Source of the DNA: Candidatus Tiddalikarchaeum anstoanum
GTDB lineage: Archaea; Nanobdellota; Nanobdellia; Tiddalikarchaeales; Tiddalikarchaeaceae
Reading direction: 5' to 3'
Length of the DNA stretch: 62,639 nucleotides
Assembly (NCBI GenBank): GCA_902385255.1
Contig: CABMEV010000008.1
Location: 1 to 62,639 of the forward strand
A program made the translations under genes and the position numbers. Positions 17,474-37,303 of the stretch are shown here, in pieces; position 1 is the first letter of the stretch, and each line of letters starts with the position of its first letter. Under the pieces are notes generated by a model, which was given only the letters and a program-made list of their open reading frames with translations, searched no databases and was not told where the DNA came from.

Positions 17474-17615
17474 GACTCGGTAGCTCAGTTTGGATAGAGC
17501 GACACCCTCCTAAAGTAATGAAGAAAAACTAAAGGTCTGACAAAATATGATGAAACTGACCTACTCTGAATTTGGAGACAGGTGTAGGTCGAGAGTTCAA
17601 ATCCCTCCCGGGTCG
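17474..17615 (+). tRNA. tRNA-Arg (anticodon CCT) with intron
   Basis: The exons give acceptor GACTCGG/CCGGGTC, D-arm GCTC/GAGC, anticodon stem ACACC (17502-17506) with GGTGT (17581-17585), loop CTCCTA|A, and T-loop TTCAAAT. Outside the anticodon arm it is almost identical to tRNA-Arg(TCT) at 16081, including the A52-C62 T-stem mismatch. A 67-nt intron follows position 37. Discriminator G. Confidence 0.93.
17513..17579 (+). other. archaeal tRNA intron with bulge-helix-bulge motif
   Basis: The exon-intron boundaries fold into the splicing endonuclease target: CTCC (17507-17510) pairs with GGAG (17574-17577) as the 4-bp central helix. Three-base bulges TAA (17511-17513) and ACA (17578-17580) flank it, with cuts after A17512 and C17579. 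Insertion at 37/38 is the canonical site. Length is 67 nt. Confidence 0.9.
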
Positions 17616-17672
17616 TTTTTAACATTTTTTCTCTAGTCCAGGTCTCTTTTTCGAAAAAGAGAAGTGGGTTTT

Positions 17673-17692
17673 AATCCCTCCCGGGTCGCTAA
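17673..17692 (+). repeat. direct repeat, copy 2: orphan tRNA-Arg 3' fragment
   Basis: An exact 20-base copy of 16140-16159 with no tRNA body before it. Upstream is a perfect hairpin CTCTTTTT-CG-AAAAAGAG (about 17643-17660). The T-loop reads TTTTAAT instead of TTCAAAT, so it is not a working tRNA. It could be an attachment-site scar or the remains of a third tandem tRNA-Arg. Confidence 0.7.
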
Positions 17693-35510: not shown

Positions 35511-35582
35511 GGGCTGGTAGCTCAGCAGTAGAGCGCTACATTCGCAATGTAGAGGTCCCGGGTTCGAATCCCGGCCAGTCCA
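35511..35582 (+). tRNA. tRNA-Ala (anticodon CGC)
   Basis: Acceptor GGGCTGG/CCAGTCC with the G3-U70 pair that marks tRNA-Ala. D-stem GCTC/GAGC, anticodon stem CTACA/TGTAG with loop TTCGCAA, T-arm CCGGG-TTCGAAT-CCCGG. Discriminator A; CCA is not encoded. Its 3' end is duplicated at 37279-37303. Confidence 0.96.
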
Positions 35583-35585
35583 CTA
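35561..35585 (+). repeat. attL-like direct repeat inside tRNA-Ala
   Basis: GGTTCGAATCCCGGCC followed by AGTCCACTA, covering the T-loop, T-stem and acceptor 3' strand plus three bases. It is identical to 37279-37303. Confidence 0.85.
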
Positions 35586-35609
35586 AAAACTTATGAAATA
35601 ATAAAGTAT

Positions 35610-36092
35610 TTAGAAAACATGCATGCGGTAATTTGAAATTAGAGGTATTTTTTTTACTGCAAAATCATTGAATTTTTGTTTTTCTTCGCTTTCCCCTTCA
35701 AAATAACAATGAATATCTTTATTTAGAAAATCGATTTTAATAGTTCCTATTAAATTTAATTCGTCTTTGTATAATAAAATCTCTGCATAAGGTATGTATT
35801 CTTCAACTTTGACAGTTGGTTGAATTGCAAGTACTTCTTCAATAGTTTTAGAATCAAATTTATTTTTATAAGTATCACTTCTTTCAATATTATACTCTAC
35901 ATCAGCATCTATATCTTTTTTCTCAATTGATTCAGTATGAGTGTATATTGAACCGTTACGCGTTATAGTTACATCATGCATTATTTGACTTAATACAGGA
36001 GTATAATTCACATTTTTAGCTTCATCCATAATACCTAAAACAATAGGCATATTTCCAATTGTTGAAATATCAATTTTATTATTTTGTGTCAT
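35610..36092 (-). CDS. hypothetical protein of the tRNA-Ala element, 160 aa
   Basis: No family recognised. Soluble, beta-rich, acidic, with Asp/Glu-rich loops and a C-terminal run of strands (IPLISNYRMHVF). Its stop codon lies 28 bases from the tRNA. Its start faces the AT-rich repeat region shared with the divergent gene at 36469. Base composition is even more AT-rich than the chromosome around it, as expected of a mobile segment. Confidence 0.65.
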   Translation of the reverse strand: MTQNNKIDISTIGNMPIVLGIMDEAKNVNYTPVLSQIMHDVTITRNGSIYTHTESIEKKDIDADVEYNIERSDTYKNKFDSKTIEEVLAIQPTVKVEEYIPYAEILLYKDELNLIGTIKIDFLNKDIHCYFEGESEEKQKFNDFAVKKIPLISNYRMHVF

Positions 36093-36468
36093 AAATGTAA
36101 AACTACGGAATTATGTTATTTAATAACTTTTATGGCGAATAGATGAGTTTAAAGTTAAAACTGTTTATAAAAAATTTAAAACTTAACTAGAACTAATGCG
36201 CGTTAACTTTAAATTATATTATTTTATCTTGAAATGTTTTAATAATAATATTAATGTTTAAACTAAGGATTAATAGTGAATAATTTGTGTTAACTTTAAT
36301 CTAATATTTTTAAAAAATTAAACTATAATGCGTATGTAATAACTTTATATGATTAAGTTTAACTGGCGATACTTCAATTTGGATTTAAAATTCTTTAAAA
36401 CAGATGTTCACTTTAAAGTTGTTTATTTATCATAAAAGTATTTAAACAGAATAATTGAGTAGATAAAT
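36093..36468. promoter_or_regulatory. AT-rich divergent region with iteron-like repeats
   Basis: TTAACTTTAA occurs exactly three times: at 36203-36212 and 36290-36299 on the plus strand, and at 36149-36158 on the minus strand. Near-copies lie at about 36353 and 36408. Other repeated words are TAATGCG (two) and GGCGA (36135, 36365). The TATA box for the gene at 36469 is TATTTAAAC, about 29 bases upstream of its ATG. The repeats could be an origin-type iteron set or binding sites for an element-encoded regulator. Confidence 0.45.
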
Positions 36469-37194
36469 ATGAAATACGAAAATTTTCGAAATAATATTAA
36501 AAACCTAAATCTTCCAGAGACCCTTAAATCTAAATTATTAAGACCAGATAATTATGGTTCAAATAATTGTGATTTAGAGGAACTTTTTAAAAATAATCTT
36601 GAAAATATTCCAAATACTGTAGAATTTTATTCTGAAGTATTAGAATATATGATGGGTACTAGTTTAGGCGAAAATGATAGTTTTACTGGATATTATCTGA
36701 ATTTTTTTAATTTATTTCACAAATATAAGAGTGATATTTTTAATAATACTGAAACTCACAGGAAAGCCGCTATAGTATTCATAAAATATAAATTAGAAAA
36801 ACTTGATGATTTCAATAATCTTTTACAAAGTTACGGAATAAATGTCTTCCCATTGAAGAAAGATGAAATCGAAGATGTATTACAAACAGCTTTTGAAACA
36901 AATGATAATGGAGATTCTTTAGAACAAACAATAACTCAAATTAAAAAAGGAGTAATAGCCAATGAATCAGATTGTAAATGGGGTGAAAAATTAGTTGAAT
37001 CAATACTTGAATATGATTTAAATACAGATAGGTTTAGCAATCTCTTAAAAGGATATGAATTTGATAAAGACGAACTTAAACAAGTTATTGTATGTTATTT
37101 ATCTAAAGATAGATTAGAAGATGTTATCAAAGAATTGAACAATATAACTAATTTATCAATTAAAATTGATGTAAATATTACAAATAAAGAATAA
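36469..37194 (+). CDS. hypothetical protein of the tRNA-Ala element, 241 aa
   Basis: No family recognised. Mostly helical, very Asn/Lys/Leu-rich, without signal peptide, zinc motif or recombinase residues. The C-terminal 30 residues switch to beta strands (LSIKIDVNITNKE). ATG is placed by a TATA box about 29 bases upstream. It ends about 85 bases before the right-hand direct repeat. Not an integrase by any visible R-H-R-Y pattern. Confidence 0.65.
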   Translation: MKYENFRNNIKNLNLPETLKSKLLRPDNYGSNNCDLEELFKNNLENIPNTVEFYSEVLEYMMGTSLGENDSFTGYYLNFFNLFHKYKSDIFNNTETHRKAAIVFIKYKLEKLDDFNNLLQSYGINVFPLKKDEIEDVLQTAFETNDNGDSLEQTITQIKKGVIANESDCKWGEKLVESILEYDLNTDRFSNLLKGYEFDKDELKQVIVCYLSKDRLEDVIKELNNITNLSIKIDVNITNKE

Positions 37195-37278
37195 ATAAAC
37201 ATTGAAATAAAATCACATATTATCAACAAATATGACTAATAAACGATACGTAGTTAATAGCCTGCTGGCGAGTGAGGC

Positions 37279-37303
37279 GGTTCGAATCCCGGCCAGTCCA
37301 CTA
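37279..37303 (+). repeat. attR-like direct repeat (orphan tRNA-Ala 3' end)
   Basis: Exact second copy of 35561-35585. The preceding bases (GAGGC) do not complete a T-stem, so this is not a tRNA gene. Confidence 0.85.

Follow-up and report, generated by a model that had tools for sequence, protein, structure and literature searches.

The closest known kind of system to the one described here is the additive tRNA-cassette island, a type of flexible genomic island described from streamlined bacteria, namely Ca. Actinomarinales (PMC7771536) and Ca. Methylopumilus, where it is fGI-2 (PMC10872708). Such islands contain repeated copies of the final 20 nt of tRNA-Lys, with inserts from 330 bp and one coding sequence upward and with many unknown genes (PMC7771536; PMC10872708). 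Among archaea, the smallest thaumarchaeal cryptic element measures 2.6 kb and encodes an integrase (PMC6563490). We analysed a 62,639-nt stretch of the archaeon Candidatus Tiddalikarchaeum anstoanum (assembly GCA_902385255.1, contig CABMEV010000008.1, positions 1 to 62,639, forward strand; hereafter the window), in which a 1.7-kb interval separates a tRNA-Ala(CGC) gene from a second copy of that gene's 3′ end. Insertion at the tRNA gene is well supported, and with a probability of about 0.55 we read the interval as a two-gene, integrase-less cassette that a recombinase working in trans put into the tRNA T-arm. As in additive islands, the cassettes found here are small, stand at tRNA genes and are each closed by a repeat of the tRNA tail. 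Additive islands are bacterial and occur one or a few per genome, whereas here the host is an archaeon and the inserts lie at many different tRNA genes.

The tRNA-Ala(CGC) gene (35511-35582, + strand; Rfam RF00005, 71.5 bits; 35511-35583 according to ARAGORN) is intact by both programs. Its last 22 nt plus the following CTA make up the proximal copy (35561-35585, + strand) of an exact 25-nt direct repeat; the distal copy (37279-37303, + strand) lies 1,718 bp from the proximal one and forms the right edge of the insert. The first-pass annotation of this DNA had described this repeat of the tRNA-Ala 3′ end around 1.7 kb, a layout like that of an insertion that keeps the tRNA whole, and the lack of an integrase; the coordinates proved correct, the tRNA gene is whole, and the interval gave no usable match to an integrase in Pfam, PHROGs, PADLOC or NCBIfam. 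From composition, the 25-mer is expected by chance about 1e-10 times in the 1.16-Mb genome. The same annotation had asked whether the repeat might be a plain tRNA duplication. Neither ARAGORN nor Rfam calls a tRNA at the distal copy, which is not a duplicated tRNA because only the part from the T-loop to the end is present. GC content is 24% in the interval, against 37% upstream and 32% downstream. The rRNA genes mark the host as an archaeon, and the DPANN affiliation presumed in the first-pass annotation is compatible with the sizes of the genomes. Directly before the distal copy stands the right end of the insert, TAATAGCCTGCTGGCGAGTGAGGC (37255-37278, + strand), in which no significant hairpin was found (z_shuf 0.5).

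This architecture recurs throughout the family. We scanned for tail copies all 39 tRNA genes of the host genome (G000) and the flanks of 108 tRNA genes from four further genomes of its family, 147 genes in total from five draft assemblies of several contigs each, accepting a downstream copy of the last 17 nt on the same strand with at most two mismatches that was not itself a tRNA. Such a copy accompanies 22 of the 147 genes, while the mean for control queries with the tails of other tRNAs was 0.3 and no copy was found on the antisense strand. One locus is counted twice, tRNA-Arg(TCT) and tRNA-Arg(CCT) having a tail in common; a supposed insert ending in a tRNA-Arg(TCT) "copy" at +1460 was rejected, that copy being the tail of the real tRNA-Arg(CCT) gene. 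Gene-sized intervals number 14 at two mismatches or fewer, and two more appear at three mismatches (control there 0.7). They span 0.7-2.2 kb, are mostly 22-32% GC, and contain one or two complete open reading frames (ORFs) each, often 0-40 nt from the tRNA end. No integration enzyme of their own was found in any of these 14-16 inserts. Pfam identified as cargo ORF6N (twice), a nucleotidyltransferase with HEPN, a NUDIX-nucleotidyltransferase with NDK, Bro-N, NYN, two GNATs, an APH-type kinase, an MFS transporter, an M16 peptidase and a HAD protein, and several inserts had no match. The two ORF6N proteins at different tRNA genes of genome G003 are 68% identical. Some inserts form arrays, as on contig C89 of G003, where the order is tRNA, hairpin unit, ORF6N cassette, hairpin unit, hairpin unit.

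Three of the gene-sized inserts other than the one in the window belong to the host genome. The tRNA-Ala(TGC) gene on contig C1 has a tail copy 1,411 bp downstream (2 mismatches in 22 nt, from a search of the genome with the Ala tail), and the interval encloses a single M16-type peptidase gene; tRNA-Gln(TTG) has a 712-bp insert with one ORFan, and tRNA-Pro(CGG) an 894-bp insert with one HAD-type hydrolase. A class-wide search with the Ala tail, a pattern that fits Ala-type tails only, yielded no other gene-sized pair among the matches listed. Outside the family of the window, tail copies follow 6 of 68 sampled tRNA genes, all as short units. One stretch of 12 kb in G014 (L173) has three tRNA genes with tail copies 73-203 nt downstream and with other intervening sequences.

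The edges of the inserts are sharp. Identity between copy and original is 0.89-1.00 at tRNA positions 58-73; it falls to roughly 0.5 or less across positions 56-57 and to roughly 0.6 immediately beyond the tRNA end. The tail copy starts inside the T-loop, at 57/58, and stops at the end of the tRNA. At single inserts the copy reaches 0-1 nt further to the left and mostly 0-4 nt further to the right, and the repeat at the Ala locus exceeds the core edges by 6 nt on the left and 3 nt on the right. No terminal inverted repeat is common to the gene-sized inserts (P 0.99 for the Ala insert). An attC-like hairpin at the end of every cassette was rejected for the gene-sized inserts by a folding test, with no attC model run (mean z -0.6; 0.5 at the Ala locus). 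Short units do have a hairpin before the distal copy (mean z -4.9).

Comparison of orthologous sites agrees with insertion at two tRNA genes. At tRNA-Ala(CGC) of G003 a 969-bp ORF6N insert is followed by two small ORFs, tRNA-Gly and a membrane-protein gene, while at the same tRNA of its congener G001 tRNA-Gly comes 43 nt later, followed by the orthologous downstream gene. At a second tRNA, 52 nt separate the end of the G003 array from a gene whose G001 counterpart begins 43 nt past a unit of 179 bp; G002 has no tail copy there. For tRNA-Gln(TTG) and tRNA-Ala(TGC) of the host genome, the conserved downstream genes lie 2.8-3.0 kb further off than in G002, and the inserts account for 0.7 and 1.4 kb of this shift, respectively. 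The two small ORFs between the ORF6N cassette and tRNA-Gly in G003 (L167, 1724-2258) overlap, are RHH-like and MazF-like by eye, and are absent from G001; they look like a toxin-antitoxin pair and may perhaps be an earlier cassette with a far copy that is now degraded.

The Ala insert itself contains two divergent ORFans with a coding look, in line with the two orphan genes first reported there. ORF1 (35610-36092, - strand) encodes 160 aa, and 27 nt separate its stop codon from the end of the tRNA; ORF2 (36469-37194, + strand) encodes 241 aa, predicted at low confidence to be all-helical. GC by codon position is 0.40/0.24/0.14 and 0.37/0.21/0.13, respectively, and the longest stop-free frame of the interval has 243 codons, against a maximum of 145 in 500 simulated intervals. 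GC at third codon positions is 13-14% in the two ORFs; of six further genes used for comparison, five have 29-41%, and the AT-rich one directly downstream has 25%. Neither protein has a usable family match in Pfam, PHROGs, PADLOC or NCBIfam. Searches of 280 genomes of the class, of genome contigs and of viral contigs turned up no credible relatives of ORF2, and viral contigs gave none for ORF1, so that looking for the two proteins beside tRNA genes elsewhere, as the first-pass annotation had proposed, yielded nothing; the architecture recurs, and these proteins do not. Predicted structures of both proteins have a mean predicted local distance difference test score (pLDDT) of 43-44. Position alone suggests that the two genes are cargo.

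Between the two ORFs lies a 376-bp region (36093-36468, no strand assigned) of 17-22% GC, read from its sequence as a divergent promoter region with two motif segments and TATA-like CATAAAAG on both sides. Sequences 74-83% identical to these segments (approximately 36117-36224 and 36336-36450) occur in four to five further intergenic places of the genome (G000:C9:25868-25968; C1:10783-10846; C3:159249-159342; C4:86397-86510). Because these matching sequences stand before genes and are followed by TATA-like CATAAAAG, we take the AT-rich centre for a promoter type common to several sites, not for repeats of an element. Of the AT-rich repeated centre in the first-pass annotation, therefore, the AT-richness stands and the repeat array gives way to a promoter motif common to other intergenic sites. 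By eye, the motif is present in the tRNA-Gln(TTG) insert as well; it also occurs directly after tRNA-Gln(CTG) on C9, perhaps as part of another cassette with no visible far end.

A candidate enzyme is encoded elsewhere in the genome. The one tyrosine recombinase above cut-off in the host (394 aa, C12:97757-98935) lies 55 bp downstream of tRNA-Asp on the same strand. It resembles archaeal XerA, although it falls below the cut-off of that model, and integron models remain far below theirs (65 bits versus a cut-off of 265). G004 has a related integrase at the orthologous tRNA-Asp, G003 has three, at tRNA-Ser, Glu and Thr, and 20 of the 30 best integrase loci across the class start 38-313 nt after the end of a same-strand tRNA. 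This integrase family resides at tRNA tails and is therefore available to act in trans, and it is probably a tRNA-adjacent integrase that moves the cassettes. We rejected the separate idea of the integrase being a single-gene cassette in its own right, as no distal copies were found (1.5 kb examined at 30 loci, 10 kb at tRNA-Asp). After the tRNA-Asp integrase come a Vsr-like endonuclease, a large unknown protein and a cytosine methyltransferase (L095, 2755-9821; G000:C12), by eye a restriction-modification island.

Under the reading as a recombinase-inserted cassette, a compact unit comprising one or more genes with their own promoter would recombine with the tRNA gene inside the T-loop. The 3′ part of the tRNA, beginning at about position 57, would then be present on both sides of the insert, the far copy marking its end, and the tRNA would therefore stay functional; repeated insertions at one tRNA would build arrays. 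The enzyme would be a tyrosine recombinase in trans, most likely from the tRNA-adjacent XerA-like family or else supplied by a visiting plasmid or virus. Stems of tRNAs have been discussed as tyrosine-recombinase core sites with a loop-and-palindrome layout, which the T-loop, 7 nt between inverted stem arms, resembles (PMC8371274). We infer a circular intermediate, a recombinase in trans and mobility at the present day. The junction of the circle should read ...GAGTGAGGC joined to GGTTCGAATCCCGGCCAGTCCACTAAAAACTTATG, and the empty site should be tRNA-Ala joined to CTACACAATATAATAATAAATTAAG.

Several observations weigh against this reading. Cassettes are present in G001 (87% complete), in which no integrase was detected, and the integrase of G002 is a different, weakly matching one. 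No distal tRNA copy lies within 1.5 kb downstream of any of the 30 integrase loci, and no tRNA-Asp tail copy within 10 kb in the host genome, so that use of the cassette site by the integrase-bearing elements is not evident. The tRNA-Pro insert has a host-like GC of 0.36 and could be a native gene. The first-pass annotation had looked to close relatives for an uninterrupted tRNA; one is found for sister inserts (G001 versus G003, at the same tRNA and at another) and not for the Ala locus of the window, which shows no empty site of its own because it has no syntenic relative among the genomes compared, the gene downstream of it being likewise without relatives in genome contigs. Finally, a site carried by the cassette would have to fit the tail of every tRNA that is used, which duplication of the target would explain more simply.

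Such duplication is the main rival to the recombinase cassette, and we consider it unlikely. A Cas1/casposase-like or transposase-like enzyme would make a staggered cut and about 17-25 nt of the tail would be duplicated; the insert would therefore carry no tRNA sequence and any tRNA could be used. This accounts for a copy that always matches its own tRNA, for the nearly constant edges described above, and for the presence of one ORF6N gene family at two different tRNA genes. Casposons may moreover occupy tRNA 3′ ends, with duplications of 1 to 27 nt (median 15), but their targets overlap 4-7 nt of the tRNA end rather than the T-loop (PMC4046053). Most gene-sized inserts are without terminal inverted repeats, and there is no Cas1 in the inserts, Cas1 not having been searched for in the genome.

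A further alternative, which we regard as quite unlikely, is that the intervals are decayed remnants of larger integrase-bearing islands at tRNA genes, from which the integrase and most of the cargo were lost by internal deletion while the end repeats were left. Trapped archaeal elements with a lost integrase are known, related integrases lie at tRNA genes of the same genomes, and larger islands probably exist. Remnants are nevertheless less likely because the intervals contain one or two whole genes with tight edges, and they recur at many tRNA genes of five genomes, in part as arrays. The first-pass annotation had proposed a satellite or a trimmed remnant. No gene common to the Ala insert and a helper or virus was found with PHROGs or in viral contigs, and cassettes fit better than deletion leftovers because 14-16 compact inserts with intact genes recur at many tRNA genes of the family. 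Chance, tRNA duplication or an assembly artefact is very improbable: the assemblies are drafts of several contigs, but the expectation for the 25-mer is minute, the copy is tail-only, five genomes have divergent copies, and orthologous sites are less occupied.

Much shorter units occupy the same kind of site. The second affected tRNA of the window is an intron-containing tRNA-Arg(CCT) (17474-17615, + strand; found by Rfam and not listed by ARAGORN), which is followed by a hairpin unit (17627-17670, + strand; model R1, 60.1 bits, E 3e-12) and by the tRNA-Arg tail copy that closes it (17672-17688, + strand; 1 mismatch in 17 nt). Short units of the host genome are found at this gene (17616-17688 in the window) and at two tRNA-Leu genes. 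The hairpins form a family of micro-units of about 43 nt (TTTCTTTGGTnCAG-hairpin-TGnGTT), detected in 97 of 378 genomes of the class at E<=0.1 with as many as 16 or more in a single genome; in the family of the window they occupy the space that separates a tRNA from a second tRNA tail, at times as tandem units. Besides the one in the window, they include G000:C3:195181-195223, 195243-195281 and 124166-124205, and those at loci L115-L143. On the opposite strand, the hairpin also occurs inside tRNA genes (L115, L132 and L134, and by eye L118, L121, L122 and L124). There it looks like a mobile insert resembling an intron, because its removal in silico restores tRNA-Lys(CTT) in L115, where it lies in the anticodon loop, and tRNA-Val(GAC) in L134, where it lies in the T-loop.

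We can put forward only tentatively a wider view, that the tRNA genes of this lineage serve through the T-arm as parallel, integron-like capture platforms. Single-gene cassettes would be acquired genome-wide by an enzyme encoded elsewhere, either a tRNA-adjacent integrase or a Cas1-like tail duplicator, and the hairpin micro-units would be empty or non-coding cassettes. The findings point to a route by which very small archaeal genomes may gain single genes, loaded as cassettes on essential tRNA genes that remain unbroken. The tRNA tail copy is a simple computable mark of recently gained genes, toxin-antitoxin-like ones included, where recognised mobile elements are few, and with the tRNA-adjacent integrase family the question of which enzyme moves integrase-less tRNA cassettes becomes testable. 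In the open-access literature we found no description of cassettes like these from small archaeal genomes of the present type.

The integron junction is G^TT. Integron cassettes, including those of archaeal integrons (PMC9668308), are like the inserts described here in having one or two genes, forming arrays, carrying varied cargo and depending on an enzyme encoded outside the cassette. Unlike them, the gene-sized inserts have no end hairpin, their junction is at T-loop position 57/58, and there is no IntI integrase match. Casposons share a location at tRNA ends with a short duplication (PMC4046053), but they carry Cas1, PolB and terminal inverted repeats, none of which was seen in the inserts. 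The fragmented tRNA-Thr locus of Caldiarchaeum similarly has a 1.8-kb archaeal insert between a tRNA gene and a tRNA fragment; there, unlike at the locus in the window, a recombinase is predicted in the insert and the fragment is the 5′ part (PMC3293823). Islands integrated at tRNA genes and archaeal integrative elements (PMC4383910, PMC8371274, PMC6563490) have in common with our inserts the attachment site in the tRNA 3′ part, the rebuilt tRNA and the displaced fragment at the far end; those elements encode an integrase, whereas the inserts here are 0.7-2.2 kb without one. Set against the additive islands, the inserts found here have their edge at T-loop position 57/58 and share their sites with hairpin units, and a family of integrases lies next to tRNA genes.
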